53,755 nucleotides of DNA from Phycisphaerae bacterium (GTDB lineage Bacteria; Planctomycetota; Phycisphaerae; SM23-33): NCBI GenBank assembly GCA_011050235.1, contig DRGC01000011.1, positions 1 to 53,755 of the forward strand, in the 5' to 3' direction. Positions 7,700 through 25,683 of the stretch are shown here, piece by piece (the first letter of the stretch is position 1; every line of letters begins with the position of its first letter). The translations under genes and the position numbers were made by a program. The notes beneath the pieces were generated by a model. The model saw only the letters and a program-made list of their open reading frames with translations. It did no database searches and was not told the DNA's origin.

Positions 7700-7746
7700 A
7701 CGAAGCTCAAGGCGGCGGGCCAAGCTGTCCGACCCCCGCAAAAGTT

Positions 7747-7986
7747 CCCCCGATAGCTCAATGGGTAGAGCGAGTCCGCCGCGGGCGGATTAACCGCGAG
7801 TTCGTCGGGCTGTGACAACAGAATATTCCCCGATAGCTCAATTGGTAGAGCGAGTCCGCCGCGGGCGGATTAACCGCTAGGGCGTCGGTCCGTGACAACA
7901 GAATATTCCCCGATAGCTCAATTGGTAGAGCGAGTCCGCCGCGGGCGGATTAACCGCGAGTTCGTCGGGCTGTGACAACAGAATAT
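7747..7986 (+). repeat. Three 80-bp tandem tRNA-Asn-derived units carrying a palindrome
   Basis: CGATAGCTCA starts at 7751, 7831 and 7911, and again at 7991 in the intact tRNA: an exact 80-bp period. Each unit holds the tRNA-Asn 5' half (acceptor strand, D arm, GAGCGAG). A perfect inverted repeat, TCCGCCGCGGGCGGA (7775-7789, 7855-7869, 7935-7949), then replaces the CGGCTG that carries the first anticodon base. TTAACCGC follows, then about 35 nt unlike a T arm that ends ACAACAGAATATTC. Anticodon GTT and the T arm are lost, so the units are not functional tRNAs. Units 1 and 3 share GCGAGTTCGTCGGGC; unit 2 differs (GCTAGGGCGTCGGTC), so the copies have diverged. Confidence 0.85.
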
Positions 7987-8059
7987 TCCCCGATAGCTCA
8001 ATTGGTAGAGCGAGCGGCTGTTAACCGCTAGGTTCTAGGTTCAAGTCCTAGTCGGGGAG
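7987..8059 (+). tRNA. tRNA-Asn (GTT)
   Basis: A 73-nt cloverleaf. Acceptor TCCCCGA pairs with TCGGGGA, with discriminator G at 8059. The D arm is GCTC...GAGC. The anticodon stem AGCGG/CCGCT has loop CTGTTAA, giving anticodon GTT. The T arm is CTAGG/CCTAG with loop TTCAAGT. CCA is not encoded. It is the fourth member of the 80-bp periodic array and the only intact one. It probably shares the promoter at 7672-7699. Confidence 0.93.
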
Positions 8060-8080
8060 TTCTTTTCTTAGGGGTCAGCC

Positions 8081-8356
8081 ATGTATTGGGTGTATGTGCT
8101 TGTTAGCGAGAGCACGGGTAAACGCTACGTCGGCCAGACCGCCGATCTCAAGCGTCGCCTGGTTGAGCACAACACCCCTGAGCACAATCGACGCAAACAC
8201 ACGAGCCGAAACGCCGGCCCGTGGCGGCTGGTCCACCGGGAGAACTATCCCACCCGAGCCGAAGCTATGCGCCGAGAGAAGTGGCTGAAATCCGGTGCCG
8301 GCCGTCTGTGGCTGGATGAGACGATCGGTAGAGCAAGTCCGCCGCAGGCGGATTAA
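8081..8356 (+). CDS. Small GIY-YIG endonuclease-domain protein (between tRNA-Asn and a tRNA-Asn fragment)
   Basis: A 91-residue, single-domain GIY-YIG protein of the UPF0213/URI type. It opens MYWVYVLVSESTGKRYVGQT (the GIY and YIG strands as YVL and YVG). QTADLKRRLVEHN supplies the catalytic Arg helix, then WRLVHRENYPTRAEAMRREK contains the probable metal-binding Glu. AGGGG lies about 7 nt before the ATG, and the gene starts 21 nt after the tRNA-Asn. Its last codons (IGRASPPQAD) are read from a tRNA-Asn D-arm-like segment plus the palindrome TCCGCCGCAGGCGGA, and its stop TAA is the TTAA of the tRNA anticodon loop. The natural C-terminus has therefore been replaced or fused. It may be a homing-type nuclease of a small mobile unit, or simply a house-keeping paralogue; activity is unproven. 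Confidence 0.8.
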   Translation: MYWVYVLVSESTGKRYVGQTADLKRRLVEHNTPEHNRRKHTSRNAGPWRLVHRENYPTRAEAMRREKWLKSGAGRLWLDETIGRASPPQAD

Positions 8357-8413
8357 CCGCTAGGTTCTAGGCCGCAGATCCGCCTCCGGCGGGTCCAAGT
8401 CCTAGTCGGGGAG
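8324..8413 (+). pseudogene. tRNA-Asn fragment interrupted by two palindromic elements
   Basis: The segment keeps ATCGGTAGAGCAAG (D arm), TTAACCGCTAGGTTCTAGG (anticodon 3' side, variable loop, T stem) and TCCAAGTCCTAGTCGGGGAG (T loop, acceptor 3' strand). TCCGCCGCAGGCGGA (8338-8352) replaces the anticodon 5' side. A second palindrome-bearing insert (about 8372-8393, with CCGCC TCC GGCGG) splits the T loop. The 5' acceptor strand is missing, because coding sequence of the GIY-YIG ORF takes its place. Confidence 0.75.
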
Positions 8414-10077: not shown

Positions 10078-13000
10078 TCAGACACTAACCTTCATCAGAG
10101 CATCGATCTGGAGGATCGAGAACTCCTCTTCAAGATCGTCATCTCGGCGTTGGCGTCTCGTTGACCGGAGCGTCGGCGCCGTCGTAGCGATCGCGCCCTG
10201 GGCTGGCAGTGGCGCCGTCTTCTTACGGCCATTGTCACCACCCGTTGAAAGCTGCAACGCGCTGACGGCAACGGGCGGTCGGGGCTGCGACTGATGGGGC
10301 CGCTTGCCTGCCCGCTTGCGGCGGCGCCGGTTCCGCTGTGTCGTCGATTCGTAGACACCCATCGGTTCGTCAGCCGGTTCGGCTGCCAGGGAGGCCACCG
10401 GAGCTGAACTCGACAGCGTGTCGATTACGTCTGGCTGCGGTGCAAGCATCAGTGGGGCCGACGTCGCGATCAGTGTGGCGGCAACGTCACTTGCCAGTGC
10501 CGTATTGACTTCGGCCGGCGCCTGCTGCGTGGTGTCGGCCGTGACCTGCACGGGTGCTGCCGGCGTCTGCAAAGCCGCGGGCGGCGCCATCGAGGGCGCG
10601 GCCGCACTGGCGTTGAATCCGAAGTACTTGGCCAGGATCGACAGGTCCGTTACGTCGACCAGGCCGCTGCCGTTGAGGTCGCCGCCGGACCAGCCGACGC
10701 CCTGAGAGGCGAAGTTGGTCTTGAGGATCGCCAGGTCGGTCCCATCAACCAGGCCGTCGAGGTTGATGTCGCCGTATTCGGTGTTGAGGATGTCGTGGAT
10801 CAGCACGTCCATGTCGTCTTCGTCGGCGTCACCGTCGCCGTCGAGGTCGAAGGCAGCGTTTCCCTGGTGGGCGTAGAGCAGATCGATGTCCAAGCTGTCG
10901 ACCAGCCCGTCACCGTTGAAGTCACCCGCGACGGCTGGGGCCAGGTTGGCGAAGTCTCGGCCGTCAACGACCTCACTTGGGCCCAGGGAAATCGCGTAGT
11001 TCACAGGCCCCGACAGATTCGACATGTCGCCGCCCAGGCCGACAACGCTACCGGTTACGCCGCCGAGGGCAAAGCTGCCCAGAACCGCGCCCGTCGACGG
11101 GTCGATGCGATAAACCAAACTGCCGATGCCCGAACCGATCGCCAGCAACTCGCCGCCCACATAGGCCAACCCGCCGTCCAGCGCGCCCAGGCCGGTGGCG
11201 AAGGTGCTGAGCACCGAACCATCCGTCGGGTCAATGGCGATGATCTCGCCCGCGGCGTTGCTGTCAAACAGCACACCCAGATCAGCCGCGCCGGTCAGGC
11301 CGCCCGTCACCGCAGCCGATATCGTCAGCGTCCGGACGAAACTATCACTGGCGGGATCCCACACAGCTACTTGGTCGGACATGTATTGGATGTAGAGCAG
11401 CCCGTCGAGGTAGGCGAGCCCCTTGATGACATAGATAGCCCCAAACGTCAGCGGATCGGAATCGATCACCGCCCCGGTATCCAGGTCCAGCTCCCACAGC
11501 GTGGGCGTGAACCAGTCGTTGGCATCGACGTAGAACAGGCTATCCGGCCCGACGGCCAGGCCCTGATAGCCTACGCTGACTGGATTGGCCGGAGCGGCAA
11601 AGCTGTTGAGCGTGCTGCCGTCAGTCGGGTCGATCTCGTGGATCGTCATCGCCCCGCCAACCACCTCAGCGGCAAAGGCCCGCTCCTCCACGCCAATCGG
11701 GGCCGTCTGCTGCCACCCGGCGGGCACGACCTGACGAACCTTGTAGTCATCCTGCACCAGCCCGGCGAAACGGTAGCGCCCGCGCTCGGTGGCCGGATCG
11801 ATGATGCCGTCGCCGTTGAGGTCTTCGCTTGCGGTCGTGGCCGTGGCAATCACGCCGCTGGCCGGATTGACCAACTCCACCGTCCACCCGTTGACGCCAA
11901 CCTCGACGCCATCCCGCACGCCATCACCGTCCAGATCACCGAAGACCTGCCCGGCGACCTCCGCGTCGGCCGGCTCGTTGCCGAAGTCCAGGCCCTCGTA
12001 TGCCTGGCTGGCTTCAACAGTCAGCAGATATGTCTCGCTCACAGGAAAAGTCTGCGACCAACCGGCCTGGGCGACCTGGCGTACCTCATAGTCGCCCGGC
12101 AGGAGCGCATCAACGACATAGATGCCGCTCTCAGTCGCAGGATCGATCGAACCGCTGCCGTCCAGATCGACATCCATGGTCACTGCCGTCGCAACAACGC
12201 CCGACGTGGCGACATCAACCACCTCGATCGTCCAGCCGTTAATCCCGAACTCGCCAGCATCCTGTACGCCACTGCTGTTGAGATCGTTGAATATCTGGCC
12301 GAAGATCGTCCCGAGTTCGCCCACCCCAAAGTCCAAGCCCGACAGTGTTTCGCTCACCGCCAGCGTGGCCGTATGTATGCCGCCGGCAGGCGCTGTGACC
12401 GTCCAGCCCTCGGCCGTCACAACCCGGATATCAACCGTACCGACTCGCACGTAATCAAGCACATATAGGCCCGACTCCGTTTCGGGGTCGATTGTGCCGC
12501 TCTCGTCAAGGTCGATGTCCATGGTGACGGTCGAGGCGATGACGCGCCCGTCGATCGGATCGACGGCCTCGACGGTCCAACCGTTCAGTCCAACTTCGCC
12601 GGCGTCCCGAGCGAGATTGGCGTTGACGTCGTTGAAGAGTTGGCCGGTGACCACGCCGGCATCGGTATTGGCGAAGTCCATGCCGCTAAGCGACTGACCT
12701 ACAGCCAGCGAGAAGGTCAAGGACCTGGGGCCGTATGTGGCGCCGAGGTAGACTAGCGGAGTGGTGATCTTGCCGTATTGCGGGCTGTACTCCGTGCCGT
12801 CCGACCCTATCAGGCCGAAAACGCGGTTGGCGTCGCCGGTGCGGCCAAACACTTGAATGGTCCGGGCGACCGGATCGTCGATGACCTCGATGGTGATGTC
12901 GTCGAAGTCCTTGTCCGCGGTGGCCCATTGCTTCTGACTGCCCATTCTCATGTCTTCGACGACAAACCAATAGCGATTGGGATCGGTCCCGGGCGTATAG

Positions 13001-16000
13001 GCGGGGAAATCTATGCCGTGCAGTGAGCCGCTCGGCAGCGCCTGGAAGACGTCATCGTTGACCTTCCACAATCCGGGCGTGGGGTCGACCTCGAGGAAGG
13101 ACCCTTCGAGCCAGTAGGGCTCGTAGCTGAATATGTCGACAACGAAGTTTGTCCACCCAGCGTATATGTGCAGCTTCATGTCGAACGGCTCGCGGTATGT
13201 CTGCACCCACCCGTCCTGTTGCATTTCGCGAAGCTGGTAATCTTCGGCGGGCAGATCGGTGAAGGCGTACAGGCCGGCTTCGGTGATCGGATCGATCATC
13301 CCGTCGGTGTTGAGGTCCGCACTGGCCGTGACGGTTGTTGCGATGACAGCCCCCGTGCTGGGATCGACCAGTTCGATCGTCCAGCCGTCAAGTCCGGGCT
13401 CGGTCGGTCCGCGCAGGCCGTCGCCGTCGACATCGTGCCACTTCTGGCCGGCGACGCCGTTGGCCGGGCGGTTGCCGAAGTCGGCGCCCGTCTCGTGCTG
13501 GGCTACGGCAACGACAAACGTATAGCTTACGCCAGCGGGAACGGTCTGGGTCCATCCGTTCTGCCGGACCTGTCGGACGAGATACTCGCCCGGCTGCAGG
13601 TCCTCGAAGCGATACGTGCCGCGTTCACTCACGGGGTCGATCGAGCCGTTACCGTCGACGTCCTGGTCAGCTGTGGCGGCCGTGGCGACCACATCCCCGG
13701 TGGCGGTGTTGACCAGTTCGACGGTCCAGCCGTTCACGCCAGTTTCGGCAGGGCCGTGGAGCCCGTCGCCATCGGAATCGCTGAATATCTGGCCCGCTAT
13801 CGACGGCAGCGACACGACGCCAAACGAGGCATCCCCGTATGTCTGGCCGCTGAGCGCCGCAAAGGTGTGTCCGGGCGCCGCCGGATAGGTCTGCGACCAT
13901 AACTCCGGCATGACCAGGCGGGCCTCATAGTTGCCCGGCTTGATGCCGGCAAAGGCGTATCGGCCCGACTCCGTGTGTGGATCAATCGAGCCGCTTTCGT
14001 CCAGGTCCACGTCGGCGGTGATTGCCGTGGCCGCGATTCCGCCGGTGTCGACGTCGACTAGCTTGACGGTCCAGCCGTTCAGGCCGTTCTCAGCGACGCC
14101 CTGAAGGCCGTCGTAGTCGGCGTCGTCGAAGACCTGGCCGGCGGCCGACGCCCGCTCAAACAGGCCGAAGTCGACCCCGCTGACCGTTGCAGCCGCAACG
14201 GTGACAAACTGTGGGTAGCCGGTGTTGACGCGCTGGAACACGCTGACGGCGTCGTCGTACTCTCCGGCTGTATACACATACAGGCCATCGGGGCTCACGG
14301 ACACGTCGCTAATGCCATACAGCCCGTCGACGCCGGCCACGCCGTCCTGATGGATCTCCTGCAGAGCCAGCAGGCCGGTGTCGAGATCCCGCTCGAAGAC
14401 GACAAGTGCATTGTCATCATGGCCGCCAGCCAGCACGTGCCGGCCGTCCGGGCTTATGGCCAGCGCTCGCGTTGCTGCCAGGCCGTCAATCCCCCCCTGC
14501 CCGTCGACGTAGCTCGTCACGTACGTCAGCAGACCGGTGACCGGGTCCCTGTCGAACACGGACACCGCGCTGTCGCCGGGATAGGCTGTATAGACCTGCA
14601 AGCCATCCGGGCTGACGAGCAGGTCGCCGACGCCGGCCAACCCGTCGACGCCGTCCTGATTGTCGTAGAGCGTCTGGACGTGTGTCAGGCGGCCCGTGGC
14701 TGCGTCCCGGCTGAACACGACTAGAGAGCCCGGGCTGCTGCATGCAACATAGATGTTTAGCCCGTCAGCACTCACCGTCACCGCCCCCGGACCGGACAGG
14801 CCGGGAGCGTCAACGTCGTCGACCAGTGCCTGGTGCTGACTCAGAAGACCCGTAGTCGCACTGCGGACGAATACCAGCAAGCTGTCGTTCGCCTCACCGC
14901 TGGTGGTGACGTAGACGTAATTGCCGTCGGGGCTGTCCACCGCTGCCCTGGGGATGCCGTGGTCCAGCACGAAGTCCGACTCGGACCGGATGGCCTGGGC
15001 CCTCGTTACATAGCCGGTATCGCGGGAGCGGTCGTAGACAGCCAGCAGGCCCTCATAGTCGCCCCCGACGACAAGCAGCGACCCGCCGTCTGAGTTCATG
15101 GCCAGCCACACTGTCTCCTCGACGGCGTTGTAGTTGTTGCCCTCAACGACCTGTACGACACTCAGTTCGCCCGTCAGGCTGTCTCTCTGGAGAACAGTCA
15201 TGGCGTCGTCGTACCGTGTGCCGACATACAGGTGATTGCCGTCCTGCGAGACGGTCAGGACGCGCGCGCCGTCCAGGTAATCCGCGCCGCCGACACCGTC
15301 TCGCAGCATCTGACTGAAGACCAGCTCGCCCGTTCCGCCGTGGGGCATGCTCTGTAGCCAATCCGGGGCGGCAACCGGCTGCACTCGGTAATCTCCGGCC
15401 GCGACGCTGGCGAAGCTGTACACTCCCATTTCCGTCTGCGGATCGATCGTGCCATTGGAATCCAAATCGATACTGGCGGTAACCTGCGTGTCGACCACCG
15501 TGCCGCTGGCCACATCCACCAACTCCACGGTCCAGCCGTTGACGCCAACATCGCCGATGTCCTGGACGCCGTTGTCGTTGATGTCATCGAACACTTGACC
15601 TTCTATGTCGCCGTAGGCGATGTCGGCAAAGTCGACTCCGGCCACATCCTCGCCGATCGTTAGCGAAACGAGGTGCGAGCCGATTGGCGCAACCTGCGTC
15701 CAGCCGGCCGGAAGAACGTGTCGCACTTCGTAGTCGCCTGGAATCAGGTCGTCGAACGAATACAAGCCGCTCTCGGTGTCGGCGGCGATGACGCCGTTGC
15801 CGTCCAGGTCGATGCTGGCTGTTGTTGTGGCGCCCACTACAAGGCCGGTGGTCGGGTCGACAAGCTCAACCGTCCAACCGTCCTGGCCGAGATCGCCGGC
15901 ATCGTGCACGCCGTCGAGGTGACGGTCAGCGAACACCTGTCCGGAAATGTCGGCGAGCATGAAAACACCGAAGTCCAGGTCCTCGACCGTCTGGCCGTTA

Positions 16001-19000
16001 AGTGACAGGGCGTAGTTGCCCTCGGGGGTACTCTGTGCCCAGGCGATCGGTAGGACAACACGGACTTCATAATCGCCCGACAGGATTTCATTGAGGGTAA
16101 ACCATCCCGCTTCCGTGGCCGGGTTAATGACGCCGTCACCGTCGAGATCCTCACTAACGGTCACGGCGGCAGCGACGACAATGCCGTAAAGGTCGATCAG
16201 TTCGACGACCCAGCTGTTGGCGCCGTTCTCGCCGGCATTAAGGACGCCGTCGTTGTTGACATCCACGAACACTTGGCCGCTCAATGCGCTAACCCGCGCA
16301 TTGCCGAAATCGGCATCGCTGACAATCTCGCCGGCGGCCAACGTCTGTTCGATGGGCCCGACCGTATGGACGTGTTCAAAGACATCGATAACCGACGTGT
16401 CCGCCCAGGCTGAGGTGTAGAGGAATCGCCCGTCTTGACTGAGCGTCAGCGCCCAGGTGCCGACGAGCGTATCAGCTTGGTCAGCCAGCGTCAGTTCGCC
16501 GGTCGCTGCATCCCGGTGATACAACAGAAGGGAATTGCCGCTCCCGGCCGCATAGACGAACTGCCCGTCAGGGCTGATGGTCACGGCGTAAACCGCGTCG
16601 GCGTATACAGACCCCACTAGCGACAGTTCACCGGTGAGTTCGTCGCGGGCAAAGATCGTCACGGCGTCCTCAGCGGGTGAGACCGTGTAGACGTGTCGCC
16701 CGTCCACACTGCAGGCCAGATCCGTTGGTTTGCCCATCTGCGGCGCGTCGGTGCTGGCGTAGAGGGTCTGGAGATGAGTCAGGCGCCCGGTGACCGCATC
16801 GCGTGTGAATACGTAAAGGGCCTCATCACCGTCCACCAAGCGGGCACTGACGAAAGCGTGAGCCCCATTCGGGGAGATACGAATGACGTATGGCGCATTG
16901 AAATCATCGAGGCCGTTCGTGTCGTGTTCCACAACCTGTTCGACAGACAGCAAGCCGGACGCCGGATCCCGACGGAACACGGTTACCGCGCCGCGGAATC
17001 GTTCATCCGTAACATAGATGAATGCCCCGTCGGGGCTGATCGCCTGGCCTCGGGGGTAGCTCAGAGATGCGCCGTTCTCACCATCACGAAGGGTCTGCAA
17101 GAACGTTAGGTCGCCAGTGGCCGGATCTCGTTGGAACACGTAGAACGCATCAACTTCAGTCAGATAGACAAACAAACCATCCGGACTGACGATGACATTT
17201 GCGGCAAGGTTGAAGGCGTCGGGGCCGGCTGACCGGAGTTCCTGATCGAACGTCAACTGACCGGTGTAAGGATTGCGCTGGAAGATAGCCAACGCGTCCC
17301 CGAAGTTGTCGGTCACGTAAAGCTGTCGGCCATCGGGGGACAAGGCCGAGCTGGCGGCGCCGTTCAGCCCGCCCGTGCCGTCAGGCACTTGCTGGATCGG
17401 CGTTAGCTGTGCTGCCTCCTGGGAGGGAGCCGTTTGAGTCCAGCCCTGCCGAGCCACCTCGTGGATTTCGTAATCGCCCGGCAGGAGATGATCGAAGGTG
17501 TAGAGGCCGGCCTCGGTTTCGGGATCGATCGAGCCGTCGCCGTTGAGGTCCATGCTGGTCGTAACAGCCGTGGCTATCAGGCCGCCGGTGTCCGTGTCGG
17601 TCAGTTCGATCACCCACCCGTCCATGCCCGGCTCGCCGGCGTCCCGCTGACCATCGGCGTCGAGGTCTTCGAACTCTTGGCCGCTAATGGAAGAAGGATC
17701 GGTAACGACCACGCCGAAGTTCAAGTCCGTCACGCCGCTATCGCCGGAGAAAAGGGTGATATTGTGAGTGCCATCGGCGGGCAAAGTGAGCGTTACTTGC
17801 GAGTGGACAATCAGGCGGGTCTCATAACTCCCCGGCCGAAGACCGGCAAAAACATACAGACCGTTTTCGCTGGCGGGGTCGACAGAACCGTTGCCGTCCA
17901 GGTCGACCGGGCCGCTTCGAGTCAGGCCAAGGATCGCGCCCGTCTCGCTGTCGATCAGCTCAACCAACAGGCCGCCAACACCTTCCTCACCGACATCCCG
18001 CACTCCGTCGGCATTGTCATCATGGAACACTTGCCCGGACACGTCGACAGAAAGGAACGAACCGAAGTCTTGCCCGCTGATGACATCTCCGGCGGCGAGG
18101 TAGACCTGGTGGTACTGGCCATGCGGGAAGTCAAACACCGTCAGGCCATAGTAGCCCGTGACGAAGACGTGCTGATTGTCCGGGCTGATGGCGAGGGAAT
18201 TGGGTTGCCATATGTTGTCCATTACTTGGGACAGGGCCAGCTCGCCCGTGGCAGCATCTCGATCGAATATGGCCAGTGAGCCATCGTCGTAGCTGACGAC
18301 AAGCACATGTTGATCATCCGAGGTAACGGAGACAGCATAGGGCGTCTCCAGGCCGTCTATCCAGTCTGACCTATCCTGTAGGATCTGCCCGCGACTCAGT
18401 TCGCCAGTTATCTCGTCCCGCAGGAAGAGGGCAATGCTGTTGCCTCCGGTGGCAACAACGTAGATGTGTCGTCCATCGCCGCTGACGGCCAAGTCTGACG
18501 GGTTGTAAAGTCCATTCGGAGTTGCACCGAAAAGTTTCTGAATGTACGTCACGATGCCTGTGGCCGGATCGCGACTGAAGGTTGCCAGAATTCCGTTGGG
18601 TCTGTTGTAAGAATAGGCGTCGGAGATGACGTACACATACTGTCCGTCGGGCGAGACGGTCAGGCCATGGGGTCCCCAAAGGGCGTCATCGTTCTCGGCG
18701 CCATTGAAGACGGCCTGTACCTGCGACAGGAGCCCAGTGGTGGGGTCCTGTGTGAATATGGCCAGCGAGTCGTCCCAACTGGCGATAAGCACATCACGAC
18801 CATCAGGGCTGAGGGCTATATCCCTAGGCGTGCCCAGGCCGACCACGCCGTCTACGCCTTCCGTTAACGTCTGCAGAAGCGACAATTCGCCCGTGGCCAC
18901 ATCTCTGCGGTACACGAGTAATGAGTAGTCCCCCGACGAACTACGCGCGTATACGTATAGGCCGTTCGGGTTGACCGCCAAGAAGCGTGCGACGTGCGGG

Positions 19001-21312
19001 AGGACCTGCGCTTCGGTCATCTCTCCGGAGACGGGATCCCGGCTGAGCACGGTCAGCCCGTCACTCGACGCGACGTAGACATGCCGCCCATCAGGCGAAA
19101 CGGCCAACTCCTCCGGCCGTCTGAGGTTGTCAATTCCATTGACGCCATCGGCAAGGATCTGCTCGATCGTCAGATCGGCCGGCACGCCGACCGGCATGGA
19201 TGCCTGCCAGCCGGTGGGAAGGACCTGACGTACTTGGTATTCGCGCGGCGCGAGGCCGGCGAAACTGTAAAGCCCGGCCTCGGTGGCTGGGTCGATCACC
19301 CCGTCGCCGTCGAGGTCGCTGGCGGCCGAGACGCCCGTCGCCACGACGCGCCCCAGCACGACGTCGAACAGTTCAACCGTCCGGCCATCGACGCCCAGTT
19401 CTGCGACGTCGTGAACGCCGTCCGCATTCAGATCGTCGAACGCCTGACCATGGATTTCTCCCAGAACAGCGACGAACAGGCCCAAGTCAAGGTCCGTCTG
19501 GTCCGCCCCACCGGACACCAGTGACAGATGTGCTCCCCCCGCCGGTGATGTCTGCGCGACACCGTCGGGCAGGACCAAGTGCAGCTCGTACGCGCCCGGC
19601 CAAATGTTCTGGAAAGAATATAGACCCGCTTCGGTCATCGGGTCGATCACGCCATCGCCGTCCAGATCGCTTTGATCGGCTATCATGCTCTCGACAGCGA
19701 AGCCGGTGGTCGTATCGATCAACTGCACCTGCCAACCATCGACGCCCGTTTCTGCGGGATCTCGCAGACCGTTGTTGTTGGCGTCGTTGAACACCTGCCC
19801 GGCGATCTCGCCGATCGTTTGCACATTGCCGAAGCTGGCATTCGCCGCGCCGCCTGGCCCGCCCATCAGGAAGGTGTGGTAATCGTTGAAGACGTGCTCG
19901 AAAACGCCGATGGAATCCTTGTTGTGGCTGACAACATACAGGAATCTGCTGTCAGCGCTGCTTGTCATATCATCTATCGCTCCCAGTTTCACGCCAGAGG
20001 CGGCACGATATGTCGTCACGTAGGTCAGCGCGCCGGTAGTTACGTTGCGGCGGAAGCTGACAACCCGTCCTGGGTTATACTCCGTGCCGACGAAGACATG
20101 CTGGCCGTCCGGGCTGACCTCGACCGAGATGGCATTGTACATGTCCTCGATGCCATCCTCGCCGTCCTCATACTTATAGTCAAAGGTCAGCTCACCTGTC
20201 GCTGGATCACGCTGGAACAGCGCGACGCTGTCCGTCCCGGAAAGATAGACATGCTTGCCGTCTTCGCTGATGGCGACGTCTCTGGCGTTCAAGCCGTCCA
20301 CACCGGCTACGCCTTGGGCCAGGGTCTGCACATACGTCAAGTTTCCGGTCGCGATGTCCCTGGCGAATACAATCAAGGTGGGGGAGTACGATGCATATTG
20401 ATCCGATGCGAGCACATACACGCTCGTGGCGTCCGGGCTCATCGCCAGATAGTCGGGGTTGAATAGGTCCGCCAGACCCTCTTGACCTCTGGCGATCACT
20501 TGCTGACTGGTCAGCCCGCCCGACCCATCGTGCGAGTAAACAGTAATGCGGTCGTTATAACCTGTCACGTAAACGTTGGCGCCATCAGGGCTGATGAGAA
20601 TATCGTTGCCGTCGCTGCCGGCCAAACTGTCAACAAATGTAAGCCGACCGGTTTCCGCGTCTCGGTCGAAGACGACTATCCTGGAAGTGCTGCCAAAGAA
20701 CAGATGGTTGCCGGCTTCGTCCATTGTCATGCCAGTCGGATAGGACAGCATGTTGATATCTTCGTGCGATATGCTCTGCTCGAACGATAATTCACCGGTC
20801 TGTCCATCACGGCTGAAAACCGCGATCGCCTGGTCGTACCAGGACAACACATACATGTGACGACCATCCGGGGAATTGATCACGCGTGTTGGATAGTCCA
20901 ACCCGTCGACGTCGTCCACGCCATCCAACAGCACCTGTGTGAGGGCCAGCTGGCCTGTGGGAATTGATGGGGACGTTTGCGTCCAGCCAGCCTGGTCCAT
21001 CTGGCGGACCTGGTATTCGCCTATAGTCAGGCCTTCGAAAGCGTACCAGCCGGCCTCGGTGACAGGGTCTATCACGCCATCGCCATTGCGATCACTGTCG
21101 GCCGTACTCATCGACTGGAGCCCCGCGCCTGTCGTCACGTCGACCAGCTCTACCGTCCAGCCGTTCAAACCGGGCTCGCCGGGGTCCTGAAAACCGTTGC
21201 CGTTGAGGTCTTCCCAGACTTGCCCTTCGATCGTGCCGTTTAGCAGCAAACGTGGTTCGAGGGCCTCAAAGGCCGGTCGATTTGGACAATCCCGTCTGTC
21301 TTCGCCTTTCAT
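10078..21312 (-). CDS. Giant LEPR-XLL surface protein: SdrD B-like repeats, beta-propellers, dockerin-like end
   Basis: A 3744-residue protein. The start at 21312 has GGGAG about 7 nt upstream; residues 15-26 hold the LEPR-XLL motif (FEALEPRLLLNG) typical of planctomycete giant surface proteins. I count 14 SdrD B-like units of the form GQVFxDxNxDGxxDxGExGxxGWTVELVD, each followed by a DLDGDGVIDPxTEAG Ca-binding-like loop. Their starts run at roughly 21.2, 19.8, 19.5, 18.0, 17.7, 16.3, 15.9, 15.6, 14.1, 13.8, 13.5, 12.7, 12.3 and 12.0 kb. Four lactonase/YVTN-type propellers (LxVSPDGxxVYV, VFxRDxATGxLT) lie at about 20.9-19.9, 19.2-18.1, 17.4-16.4 and 15.3-14.2 kb. A smaller YncE-like propeller lies at 11.7-11.0 kb. 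Dockerin-like EF-hands (10.9-10.6 kb) and an Ala/Pro then basic tail end the protein. Likely an adhesive or matrix protein; ligand unknown. Confidence 0.9.
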   Translation of the reverse strand: MKGEDRRDCPNRPAFEALEPRLLLNGTIEGQVWEDLNGNGFQDPGEPGLNGWTVELVDVTTGAGLQSMSTADSDRNGDGVIDPVTEAGWYAFEGLTIGEYQVRQMDQAGWTQTSPSIPTGQLALTQVLLDGVDDVDGLDYPTRVINSPDGRHMYVLSWYDQAIAVFSRDGQTGELSFEQSISHEDINMLSYPTGMTMDEAGNHLFFGSTSRIVVFDRDAETGRLTFVDSLAGSDGNDILISPDGANVYVTGYNDRITVYSHDGSGGLTSQQVIARGQEGLADLFNPDYLAMSPDATSVYVLASDQYASYSPTLIVFARDIATGNLTYVQTLAQGVAGVDGLNARDVAISEDGKHVYLSGTDSVALFQRDPATGELTFDYKYEDGEDGIEDMYNAISVEVSPDGQHVFVGTEYNPGRVVSFRRNVTTGALTYVTTYRAASGVKLGAIDDMTSSADSRFLYVVSHNKDSIGVFEHVFNDYHTFLMGGPGGAANASFGNVQTIGEIAGQVFNDANNNGLRDPAETGVDGWQVQLIDTTTGFAVESMIADQSDLDGDGVIDPMTEAGLYSFQNIWPGAYELHLVLPDGVAQTSPAGGAHLSLVSGGADQTDLDLGLFVAVLGEIHGQAFDDLNADGVHDVAELGVDGRTVELFDVVLGRVVATGVSAASDLDGDGVIDPATEAGLYSFAGLAPREYQVRQVLPTGWQASMPVGVPADLTIEQILADGVNGIDNLRRPEELAVSPDGRHVYVASSDGLTVLSRDPVSGEMTEAQVLPHVARFLAVNPNGLYVYARSSSGDYSLLVYRRDVATGELSLLQTLTEGVDGVVGLGTPRDIALSPDGRDVLIASWDDSLAIFTQDPTTGLLSQVQAVFNGAENDDALWGPHGLTVSPDGQYVYVISDAYSYNRPNGILATFSRDPATGIVTYIQKLFGATPNGLYNPSDLAVSGDGRHIYVVATGGNSIALFLRDEITGELSRGQILQDRSDWIDGLETPYAVSVTSDDQHVLVVSYDDGSLAIFDRDAATGELALSQVMDNIWQPNSLAISPDNQHVFVTGYYGLTVFDFPHGQYHQVYLAAGDVISGQDFGSFLSVDVSGQVFHDDNADGVRDVGEEGVGGLLVELIDSETGAILGLTRSGPVDLDGNGSVDPASENGLYVFAGLRPGSYETRLIVHSQVTLTLPADGTHNITLFSGDSGVTDLNFGVVVTDPSSISGQEFEDLDADGQRDAGEPGMDGWVIELTDTDTGGLIATAVTTSMDLNGDGSIDPETEAGLYTFDHLLPGDYEIHEVARQGWTQTAPSQEAAQLTPIQQVPDGTGGLNGAASSALSPDGRQLYVTDNFGDALAIFQRNPYTGQLTFDQELRSAGPDAFNLAANVIVSPDGLFVYLTEVDAFYVFQRDPATGDLTFLQTLRDGENGASLSYPRGQAISPDGAFIYVTDERFRGAVTVFRRDPASGLLSVEQVVEHDTNGLDDFNAPYVIRISPNGAHAFVSARLVDGDEALYVFTRDAVTGRLTHLQTLYASTDAPQMGKPTDLACSVDGRHVYTVSPAEDAVTIFARDELTGELSLVGSVYADAVYAVTISPDGQFVYAAGSGNSLLLYHRDAATGELTLADQADTLVGTWALTLSQDGRFLYTSAWADTSVIDVFEHVHTVGPIEQTLAAGEIVSDADFGNARVSALSGQVFVDVNNDGVLNAGENGANSWVVELIDLYGIVVAAAVTVSEDLDGDGVINPATEAGWFTLNEILSGDYEVRVVLPIAWAQSTPEGNYALSLNGQTVEDLDFGVFMLADISGQVFADRHLDGVHDAGDLGQDGWTVELVDPTTGLVVGATTTASIDLDGNGVIAADTESGLYSFDDLIPGDYEVRHVLPAGWTQVAPIGSHLVSLTIGEDVAGVDFADIAYGDIEGQVFDDINDNGVQDIGDVGVNGWTVELVDVASGTVVDTQVTASIDLDSNGTIDPQTEMGVYSFASVAAGDYRVQPVAAPDWLQSMPHGGTGELVFSQMLRDGVGGADYLDGARVLTVSQDGNHLYVGTRYDDAMTVLQRDSLTGELSVVQVVEGNNYNAVEETVWLAMNSDGGSLLVVGGDYEGLLAVYDRSRDTGYVTRAQAIRSESDFVLDHGIPRAAVDSPDGNYVYVTTSGEANDSLLVFVRSATTGLLSQHQALVDDVDAPGLSGPGAVTVSADGLNIYVACSSPGSLVVFSRDAATGRLTHVQTLYDNQDGVDGLAGVGDLLVSPDGLQVYTAYPGDSAVSVFDRDPVTGLLTYVTSYVDGQGGIDGLAATRALAISPDGRHVLAGGHDDNALVVFERDLDTGLLALQEIHQDGVAGVDGLYGISDVSVSPDGLYVYTAGEYDDAVSVFQRVNTGYPQFVTVAAATVSGVDFGLFERASAAGQVFDDADYDGLQGVAENGLNGWTVKLVDVDTGGIAATAITADVDLDESGSIDPHTESGRYAFAGIKPGNYEARLVMPELWSQTYPAAPGHTFAALSGQTYGDASFGVVSLPSIAGQIFSDSDGDGLHGPAETGVNGWTVELVNTATGDVVATAATADQDVDGNGSIDPVSERGTYRFEDLQPGEYLVRQVRQNGWTQTVPAGVSYTFVVAVAQHETGADFGNRPANGVAGQKWHDVDGDGLRGPTEPGLDGWTIELVDPSTGAVIATTVTASADLNTDGMIDPITEAGLYAFTDLPAEDYQLREMQQDGWVQTYREPFDMKLHIYAGWTNFVVDIFSYEPYWLEGSFLEVDPTPGLWKVNDDVFQALPSGSLHGIDFPAYTPGTDPNRYWFVVEDMRMGSQKQWATADKDFDDITIEVIDDPVARTIQVFGRTGDANRVFGLIGSDGTEYSPQYGKITTPLVYLGATYGPRSLTFSLAVGQSLSGMDFANTDAGVVTGQLFNDVNANLARDAGEVGLNGWTVEAVDPIDGRVIASTVTMDIDLDESGTIDPETESGLYVLDYVRVGTVDIRVVTAEGWTVTAPAGGIHTATLAVSETLSGLDFGVGELGTIFGQIFNDLNSSGVQDAGEFGINGWTIEVVDVATSGVVATAVTMDVDLDGSGSIDPATESGIYVVDALLPGDYEVRQVAQAGWSQTFPVSETYLLTVEASQAYEGLDFGNEPADAEVAGQVFGDLDGDGVRDGVEVGVNGWTVELVNPASGVIATATTASEDLNGDGIIDPATERGRYRFAGLVQDDYKVRQVVPAGWQQTAPIGVEERAFAAEVVGGAMTIHEIDPTDGSTLNSFAAPANPVSVGYQGLAVGPDSLFYVDANDWFTPTLWELDLDTGAVIDSDPLTFGAIYVIKGLAYLDGLLYIQYMSDQVAVWDPASDSFVRTLTISAAVTGGLTGAADLGVLFDSNAAGEIIAIDPTDGSVLSTFATGLGALDGGLAYVGGELLAIGSGIGSLVYRIDPSTGAVLGSFALGGVTGSVVGLGGDMSNLSGPVNYAISLGPSEVVDGRDFANLAPAVAGDFNGDGLVDSLDIDLLYAHQGNAAFDLDGDGDADEDDMDVLIHDILNTEYGDINLDGLVDGTDLAILKTNFASQGVGWSGGDLNGSGLVDVTDLSILAKYFGFNASAAAPSMAPPAALQTPAAPVQVTADTTQQAPAEVNTALASDVAATLIATSAPLMLAPQPDVIDTLSSSAPVASLAAEPADEPMGVYESTTQRNRRRRKRAGKRPHQSQPRPPVAVSALQLSTGGDNGRKKTAPLPAQGAIATTAPTLRSTRRQRRDDDLEEEFSILQIDALMKVSV

Positions 21313-21800
21313 GACAATCTCCCTATAGCGATGCCCCGTATTAGACGCATGGCCTCCCACGAGAAGTCGGTGTTTTTTTCGAAGAATCCCCAGCCGGCGA
21401 TCTGGTGGCGGCCCCGTGTCCGTCCATATCGCACCCGTTCAATGGCCACATCCCCGTGATTGACAATCCCATCATCTCCTCTACCAAAGGCCCGGGCCCG
21501 CATCCCACTGTCGCAGGAGCCGCGCACTGCCAACGGCCTCCGTCAGCTTGCCTCTCGTCGCTTCCGCCCTCCGGCTGCCTCAATCTGTACAGCCCCATCA
21601 TAGAAGGACGTAACCGCCGAGCAGTACGCAAATTGTACCATGGCTACCCTTTACTGCAAGACATTCCCAGCAGCATTATCCGGGGCAACGCGACCCGCCG
21701 GAGCTACGATGAAACGACCAGCGGCGGCCGTCTCTGGCCCCTACTTCCCGGCGACGAATCTGTCCAACACCGACAGGTCGATCAATCTTCGCAGACCTGC

Positions 21801-25217: not shown

Positions 25218-25580
25218 TTATGGCAACAGGGAGGCGAAGGTGCGGGGGCGTCGGCGGCCGAGTGTTTTGAGTTTCACCATGTCGCCAGCGATCAGGGCCT
25301 GTTTCTTGTGGTGCGTCCATCGTTTGACTTGGCGCTCACGTTCGACAGCGTCGCCTCGGGATGGGAATCGCTGGTGATAGACAAGACGGACGGGTCGGCG
25401 TGCAGCGGTGTAGGCGGCGGCTTTTCCCGTCTGGTGCGCGCGAAGGCGAAGCTGAAAGTCAGCCGTCGAGCCAACATAGAAGCTTCCGTCGGCGCACTGG
25501 AGAATATAGGCGAAATGGGCCTTTTCGGTGGCCAAGAGATTGCCCTTCGACTCGCTGCGCTCGCTCAGGACATTCTCCAT
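25218..25580 (-). CDS. Second small GIY-YIG endonuclease-domain protein, downstream of tRNA-Ala
   Basis: A 120-residue ORF. The GIY-YIG core is HFAYILQCADGSFYVGSTADF (YIL and YVG strands), then LRLRAHQTGKAAAYT with the catalytic Arg, and PSRGDAVERERQVKRW with the conserved Glu. The first 13 residues (ENVLSERSESKG) are coded by a dispersed element (25543-25572). The only ATG lies directly after the palindrome 25582-25601, whose AGAAGG could act as ribosome site. A TTG start nearer the domain (LLATEKAHF) is an alternative. The gene begins 30 nt after tRNA-Ala in the same orientation, mirroring the tRNA-Asn/GIY-YIG arrangement at 8 kb. The C-terminus (KTLGRRRPRTFASLLP) is basic and unlike the first copy. 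Confidence 0.75.
   Translation of the reverse strand: MENVLSERSESKGNLLATEKAHFAYILQCADGSFYVGSTADFQLRLRAHQTGKAAAYTAARRPVRLVYHQRFPSRGDAVERERQVKRWTHHKKQALIAGDMVKLKTLGRRRPRTFASLLP
25543..25572. repeat. Expanded CTTCGAC..GCTCAGGACA element
   Basis: CCCTTCGACTCGCTGCGCTC followed by GCTCAGGACA. It is the same family as the copies in ligA and the left-edge gene, with an inner TCGCTGCGCTCGC hairpin-like expansion. On the minus strand it encodes LSERSESKG of the GIY-YIG ORF. Confidence 0.6.
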
Positions 25581-25610: not shown

Positions 25611-25683
25611 TGGAGCCGAGGGGAATCGAACCCATGACCTGCTGATTGCGAACCAGCCGCTCTCCCAACTGAGCTACGGCCCC
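25611..25683 (-). tRNA. tRNA-Ala (CGC)
   Basis: 73 nt on the minus strand, starting GGGGCCGTAGCTCAGTTGG. The anticodon arm is GCTGG/TCAGC with loop TTCGCAA (anticodon CGC). The T loop is GTTCGATTC, the acceptor end CGGCTCC and the discriminator A. CCA is not encoded. A GIY-YIG ORF follows 30 nt downstream. Confidence 0.93.

Follow-up and report, generated by a model that had tools for sequence, protein, structure and literature searches.

A palindrome-flanked GIY-YIG nuclease gene beside tRNA-Asn in a Phycisphaerae genome: a probable selfish element at a tRNA gene

The window that we analysed, i.e. the whole stretch of 53,755 nucleotides from a Phycisphaerae bacterium, carries a small GIY-YIG nuclease gene between an intact tRNA-Asn gene and a damaged copy of that same tRNA, and the question is what kind of genetic entity this arrangement represents. 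The intact tRNA-Asn(GUU) (7987-8059, plus strand; ARAGORN and Rfam, 71.1 bits) was the sole full-length tRNA-Asn found in the genome by DNA search, and its end is separated by 21 nt from the start of the nuclease ORF (8081-8356, plus strand, 91 aa). The last codons of the ORF (GGT AGA GCA AGT CCG CCG CAG GCG GAT TAA) consist of a copy of the D-loop/D-stem followed by the palindrome TCCGCCGCAGGCGGA (8338-8352, strand not assigned), which stands in place of the 5' side of the anticodon arm; the C-terminus GRASPPQAD comes from this D-arm copy and palindrome, and the stop is the TAA of the anticodon-loop TTAA. The ORF end overlaps a downstream pseudo-tRNA-Asn that runs from the D-loop to the 3' end (8324-8413, plus strand; direct repeats D2, D3 and D4) and whose T arm contains a second palindromic insert, CCGCAGATCCGCCTCCGGCGG (8372-8392, strand not assigned). 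The spacing of the ORF, its end within a D-arm-like segment, palindrome and anticodon-loop TTAA, and the splitting of the trailing copy by a second palindrome had all been described in a sequence-only reading of this DNA, and they hold.

That reading understated the locus in one respect: absent from it were three tandem 80-bp pseudo-tRNA units on the plus strand directly upstream of the tRNA (7739-7818, 7819-7898 and 7899-7978; repeat family D1/D2), each of which contains the 5' part of tRNA-Asn, the palindrome TCCGCCGCGGGCGGA (7775-7789, 7855-7869 and 7935-7949, respectively) and then TTAACCGC, with a degenerate tail described for the first. The second unit is 91% identical to the first across a 116-nt repeat and the third 96%. 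The core of the third unit (7921-7961) recurs at 8324-8364, so that a 41-nt direct repeat (93%) links the upstream units to the downstream copy, at 403 bp from the third unit; the 403-bp segment between the repeats holds exactly one intact tRNA-Asn and the nuclease, and the ORF list gives no further ORF in it. In every pseudo-tRNA copy of the window a 15-bp palindrome substitutes part of the anticodon arm. The possibility that these copies are folded, anticodon-less tRNAs was rejected, as each is without part of the acceptor stem. A group I intron as the insertion was rejected as well: the Rfam matches above cut-off in the window are all to tRNA, and the tRNA-Asn is uninterrupted. The direct repeats of the tRNA 3' half (8021-8039 is identical to 8353-8371, 19/19; 8038-8059 and 8392-8413 agree at 95%) had been likened to att-type duplications. 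The repeats themselves stand, but they do not look like att-type duplications, since the copies are near-complete pseudo-tRNAs with palindromes that occur on both sides and often in tandem. Neither an integrase gene nor a short att core was found at the 403-bp unit, where near-full tRNA is copied and not a core, and the repeats would fit recombination between tRNA-derived repeats better than duplication by an integrase.

The product belongs to the GIY-YIG superfamily (PF01541, E=3.7e-14, residues 1-70 of 91), with the conserved Y, Y-G, R, H and E in place: Y5, Y16, G18 and H30 are invariant and R26 and E66 almost so among 33 relatives. The UPF0213/YhbQ-like and Slx1-like proteins are its closest solved relatives, by sequence (1ywl, E=2.6e-7; 1zg2, E=1.2e-6; both UPF0213 structures) and by fold: the AlphaFold model (pLDDT 84.5) matched 1zg2 best, then Slx1, and also I-TevI and the UvrC domain. 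A separate DNA-binding domain of the SegB type was seen neither with Pfam nor in the model of the 91-aa protein. The end of the palindrome-coded tail is modelled with very low confidence and is probably disordered. Slx1 is active on branched DNA, to go by the title of entry 6seh, and because of this an activity of the nuclease on hairpins or cruciforms would be a reasonable guess. Within the clade that we call Asn clade B, dN/dS values of 0.07-0.18 indicate purifying selection, in this one nuclease subclade.

The architecture of tRNA-Asn, GIY-YIG gene and pseudo-tRNAs lies far beyond chance, and it recurs at the tRNA-Val of the same genome and at Asn, Pro, Val, Ile and fMet genes elsewhere. 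With the window protein as query, four loci were recovered in its own genome, all four directly behind tRNA-Asn, tRNA-Ala, tRNA-Val or tmRNA, so that the check proposed by the sequence-only reading, whether other tRNA genes of the genome carry a GIY-YIG gene plus 3' tRNA duplicates, came out in its favour, with pseudo-copies at Val and the nuclease only at Ala and tmRNA. At tRNA-Val the entire arrangement is found again in different letters. An upstream pseudo-tRNA, with GCCCGACGGGC for the anticodon arm, precedes the intact tRNA; a GIY-YIG gene with a frameshift comes next, then a downstream pseudo-tRNA carrying GCCCAACGGGC and a T-arm palindrome, and past it a second nuclease copy, decayed, seems to begin. 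The tRNA-Ala(CGC) of the window (25611-25683, minus strand; ARAGORN, Rfam) is followed by a second GIY-YIG ORF (25218-25580, minus strand), which was placed in another subclade by protein search and tree; no tRNA duplicate or pseudo-copy was found at this locus or at the tmRNA locus. At a tmRNA locus (L004:1424-1466), nested palindromes lie between tmRNA and nuclease gene, with GGCCGAAGGTCGCCC within a GTCCTGAGCG..AGTCGAAGGGC repeat. At tRNA-Pro(UGG) of the genome (L025), two pseudo-tRNA units precede the tRNA, their palindromes sitting in the D-loop and the anticodon arm; the promoter is duplicated too, and no nuclease turned up at this locus. About 100 nt downstream of two tRNA-Gly genes (CCC, L018; UCC, L007), 18-19 nt of the tRNA 3' end are repeated, possibly as remnants of other integrations.

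We then collected 137 homologues from family-level and class-level searches plus fetched loci. The query alignment was built from four tRNA-adjacent proteins, and the finding that 74 of the 137 adjoin a tRNA or tmRNA (in a few cases the label comes from an RNA fragment at the edge of a contig) therefore describes this nuclease subfamily and not all GIY-YIG proteins. All RNA genes near homologues that were placed by ARAGORN are co-directional (68/68), and a random gene would have an RNA gene at most 330 nt upstream in about 0.2% of cases, given 47 such genes per 4 Mb. The class-level search gave a match in 103 of 248 genomes, and the relatives are mostly metagenome-assembled genomes. A scan of named genomes added Planctomycetia, Dehalococcoidia (tRNA-Asn), Patescibacteria (Pro, Gln), Bacteroidota (Phe, Ser, Met), and Ignavibacteria, Zixibacteria and Kryptoniota (initiator-type Met); the pseudo-tRNA architecture was also seen in Chloroflexota, Ignavibacteria, Zixibacteria and Patescibacteria. 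The phage record collection gave no match to the nuclease, and IMG/VR gave one strong match (L252) and 12 weak ones; as L252 lies near a contig end and has a C-terminus identical to that of a bacterial copy (in G087), the idea of a phage-borne element was dropped. The 'tRNA-Cys' that ARAGORN reports in L252 and in the bacterial copy L127 is a palindrome-bearing pseudo-tRNA-Asn and not a gene.

The loci show two recurrent layouts. In layout I an upstream pseudo-tRNA that ends around GGTTC in the T-loop is followed by the nuclease and then by the intact tRNA with its own copy of the promoter. Layout II contains optional upstream pseudo-tRNA(s), the intact tRNA, the nuclease, and a downstream pseudo-tRNA from D-loop to 3' end; the nuclease often starts less than 30 nt past the tRNA and often stops inside the pseudo-tRNA. 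Promoter and leader are duplicated and near-identical in two layout I loci (L123, L233) and in two layout II loci (L220, L231) the duplicated part is the terminator behind the tRNA, so that the repeat consists in part of host sequence and not only of carried-in DNA. In Asn clade A, which contains the window protein, the C-terminus GRASPPxAD is the translated D-loop plus palindrome, with GRASPP, A and D invariant in six members. One locus (L038, G010:C70) has a tandem pair of small GIY-YIG genes behind tmRNA. In another (L130), a group I intron (RF00028, 79.6 bits), located upstream of the nuclease at about -420 to -320, directly precedes the 3' half of a tRNA-Asn beginning at the anticodon, so that this tRNA-Asn is apparently intron-split; behind the half come a small GIY-YIG gene and more tRNA-Asn 3'-end copies.

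In different families and phyla alike, the protein subclades follow the tRNA isotype. Mapped onto the nuclease tree, the RNA labels require 30 changes, against 69.7 after shuffling, and none of 200 shuffles was as low. Asn clade A is found at tRNA-Asn in 7 of 7 cases from six families, two Pro clades are at tRNA-Pro in 6/6 and 9/9, Ile and Gln each form one group, and Val almost does. The tRNA-associated clades stand apart from a YhbQ-like sister clade (SH-aLRT 99) which, unlike the clades of the window, was never at a tRNA or tmRNA (0/27, class-level set). Many forks are weak because the protein is short.

Presence and absence were read at the tRNA-Asn site of 20 family genomes. Leaving the window aside, about 13 of the 20 sites are empty; a decayed nuclease of the window type stands at two (G022, G007), upstream pseudo-tRNA scars with no nuclease at two more (G002, G014), and a different GIY-YIG subtype at one (G019). 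Empty sites, which the sequence-only reading had named as the thing to look for, thus occur alongside scars and decayed copies, and a fixed presence with no empty site, the outcome it had named as refuting, was not seen among the relatives. The gene therefore lies, as SegB-type genes do, beside a conserved presumed target with occupied and unoccupied alleles, and here also scarred ones. One scarred genome (G002) shares genus and tRNA promoter region with G003; two 85-bp pseudo-units lie between promoter and tRNA in the former and none in the latter. In a second pair with common genus, common flanking genes and an orthologous tRNA-Asn site, one genome (G093) contains a nuclease remnant, palindrome pseudo-units, the tRNA, a nuclease and a pseudo-tRNA, and the other (G098) the tRNA and a palindrome-TTAACCGC remnant only; this best same-genus pair reads as loss with a scar and not as a pristine empty site. 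A stand-alone, full-length pseudo-tRNA-Asn with palindrome (L094, in G001, which has another intact tRNA-Asn) would be the leftover expected if recombination between upstream and downstream pseudo-copies had removed tRNA and nuclease. Frameshifted or truncated nuclease copies are common (the Val locus, G022, G054, G007). Beside the truncated nuclease of G007, the pseudo-tRNA has the acceptor strand TCGAGGAG, where all 16 readable tRNA-Asn genes of the family have TCGGGGAG. Families f14 and f17 have TCGAGGAG as their acceptor form. The nuclease of G007 is closest to L252, and L252 shares its C-terminus with the f17 copy L127, which stands behind a TCGAGGAG-type tRNA. Judging from this foreign acceptor strand and the L252-like nuclease, nuclease and pseudo-tRNA seem to have moved as a pair.

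The palindromes stand for the anticodon arm (or its 5' side) in the Asn, Pro, Val and Ile pseudo-copies and for the D-loop in the fMet copies. Their letters vary by locus while the inverted repeats are kept: TCCGCC/GGCGGA, TCAGCC/GGCTGA, TCCCGAT/ATCGGGA, GTCGCC/GGCGAC, GCCC/GGGC and GCCGTACGGC. They are not exclusive to pseudo-tRNAs, an idea that we rejected, as TCCGCCNNNGGCGGA is dispersed in several genomes: it has 178 copies in G093, 126 in G238 and 47 in G087, against 0 for the reversed control, and is rarer in the genome of the window (16, against 3 for the control), where four of the 16 are at the tRNA-Asn locus. In G093 (178 sites), G238 (126 sites) and the loci L282-L311, TCCGCCNNNGGCGGA is nested in other intergenic repeats, which in G093 form intergenic repeat mosaics. 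Separately, five YhbQ-like GIY-YIG genes away from tRNAs (L170, L177, L175, L176, L155) have matching palindromes, ATTCCCGC..GCGGGAAT, on both sides; in L170 and L177 the loops of these palindromes are in opposite orientation, with an anatomy like that of RAYT/REP. The dispersal of TCCGCCNNNGGCGGA far from tRNAs, together with additional palindromes in the T arm and other sites, would fit palindromes that are neutral passengers, a dispersed repeat family accumulating in tRNA copies that are no longer needed and without a role in the element. This we consider a possible but somewhat doubtful view, as the palindromes sit at the same spot in nearly every pseudo-copy that covers the anticodon arm, including in motif-poor genomes (G000, G002), their arms covary between loci, and the nuclease frame and stop pass through them invariantly in Asn clade A.

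Taken together, we think it probable that the locus is a selfish, free-standing, SegB-like GIY-YIG nuclease element that parasitises a tRNA gene and spreads and amplifies by recombination between tRNA-derived repeats. Its unit would be promoter-tRNA-nuclease followed by a palindrome-bearing pseudo-tRNA. The nuclease would be co-transcribed from the tRNA promoter and would break an unoccupied cognate tRNA gene near its loops; repair templated by the occupied locus, with the tRNA halves of the pseudo-copies as homology, would then copy the nuclease in beside an intact tRNA. Recombination between the tRNA D-arm and the D-arm copy at the nuclease 3' end, or between tandem copies, could subsequently amplify or delete the unit, and on deletion the upstream pseudo-tRNA units would stay as scars. 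The element would be tolerated because one intact tRNA is always kept. This agrees with the minimal mobile unit that the sequence-only reading had proposed, targeting tRNA genes and restoring the tRNA at one side, with mobility suggested by the comparison of genomes. The reading draws on architecture, recurrence, isotype specificity, presence/absence, decay, the foreign-strand signature and the purifying selection in one subclade, all taken from sequences, and we infer the cleavage, the cut position, the copying by repair and the role of the palindromes. In the array of G093 a nuclease C-terminus and palindrome precede the pseudo-units, and in each of these the 5' part of the tRNA seems to pass, at the D-arm, into the D-arm copy with which the nuclease gene terminates. 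Such junctions, which recombination between tRNA D-arm and nuclease end would leave, together with the SegB precedent, are the reason why a nuclease-driven recombination element is favoured. Against it stand a protein of no more than the GIY-YIG domain, lacking the DNA-binding domain that classical homing enzymes have, the nearest folds (UPF0213, of unknown function, and the structure-specific Slx1), the tmRNA and Ala loci without pseudo-copies, and the consideration that the intact tRNA itself should be a target too.

The other explanations account for parts of this evidence. Islands integrated at a tRNA gene characteristically have the tRNA at one end and a partial copy of it at the other, and prokaryotes commonly carry partial tRNA genes that stem from integrated elements (PMC9897764), so that the locus could be what is left of a phage or plasmid that integrated at tRNA-Asn and lost its integrase, with a passenger GIY-YIG gene and att-like repeats remaining. 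This is very unlikely given the lack of any other ORF between the repeats, the palindrome-bearing pseudo-copies on both sides, and the occurrence of one nuclease family at many isotypes and in many phyla in a constant compact layout without integrase. A vertically kept, co-transcribed host gene for tRNA processing, quality control or repair, with pseudo-tRNAs as by-products of tandem duplication, would explain the strict co-direction and tight spacing to the RNA gene, the low dN/dS in one subclade, and the stop codon and tail built from a tRNA copy. We nevertheless hold it to be improbable: the distribution is patchy (103/248 class genomes; about 13 of 20 family sites empty), broken copies are frequent (the Val locus, G022, G054, G007), and the acceptor strand in G007 is foreign.

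The correlation of nuclease lineages with tRNA isotype and the fact that the anticodon arm is the altered part of the Asn, Pro, Val and Ile pseudo-copies might instead point to an isotype-specific anticodon nuclease, i.e. a toxin, for which the pseudo-tRNAs without anticodon loop would be decoys or resistant copies. We rate this as the least likely of the readings considered here, as an incomplete acceptor stem would keep the copies from folding as tRNAs, the fMet copies are altered in the D-loop, the relatives of known function are DNA nucleases and the tmRNA loci do not fit. A broader reading, which we put forward tentatively and regard as unlikely, is that of a cross-phylum class of minimal mobile elements made of a structure-specific GIY-YIG nuclease and palindromes, with essential tRNA/tmRNA genes as home and homology arms and each lineage tuned to an isotype; the nuclease would act on hairpins or cruciforms (tRNA stem-loops, palindromes) and so drive the spread of palindromic repeats around GIY-YIG genes, as a counterpart of RAYT/REP.

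Various known systems resemble the favoured selfish element in part. In REP/RAYT systems and the Rickettsia palindromic elements, short palindromes are scattered in the genome. Dispersed short palindromes and, at the YhbQ-like loci, nuclease genes flanked by palindromes are shared with REP/RAYT, although the enzyme is a GIY-YIG nuclease here and an HUH transposase in RAYT. Like tRNA-targeting integrative elements, the element is inserted beside a tRNA, with the intact tRNA kept and a partial copy on the other side; unlike these, it has no integrase and no cargo, and has pseudo-copies on both sides, tandem arrays and palindromes. With I-TevI and the group I introns in tRNA anticodon loops it has in common a nuclease tied to a conserved gene and a working tRNA left despite insertion around the anticodon, whereas at the window there is no intron and the tRNA is kept by duplication, not splicing. 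The closest parallel in action is SegB of T-even phages, a GIY-YIG gene beside tRNA genes that is thought to amplify the tRNA-segB segment via homology of the tRNA 5' region and segB 3' region (PMC13096335); here the nuclease 3' end carries a tRNA D-arm copy. Unlike SegB, the element of the window is on a bacterial chromosome, its 91-aa product is without DNA-binding domain, the tRNA elements mostly keep to one cognate isotype per clade and have palindrome-bearing pseudo-tRNAs, and the phage collection has no match. We therefore do not class it as a SegB-family member, as the DNA-binding domain is missing, and regard it as a putative variant of the free-standing GIY-YIG homing-type elements, likened to SegB in its presumed cleavage and action.

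Full-text literature searches found, among the papers covered, no published description of a tRNA-associated GIY-YIG element, and the matching passages of the 2006 survey of the GIY-YIG superfamily (PMC1564403) contain no association with tRNA genes, so that the element is apparently undescribed so far. If many phyla carry such a one-gene element, some 400-700 bp long, at essential tRNA genes, this would account for many small GIY-YIG genes, stray tRNA fragments and part of the palindromic repeats. The coexistence of a selfish nuclease with its target would become testable in a compact system, and the tRNA amplification recently shown for phage SegB would have a parallel in bacteria.

Elsewhere in the window, an ORF of 3760 aa (10078-21360, minus strand) has, from its translation inspected by eye, repeated surface-protein-like and propeller-like segments and a dockerin-like C-terminal part.
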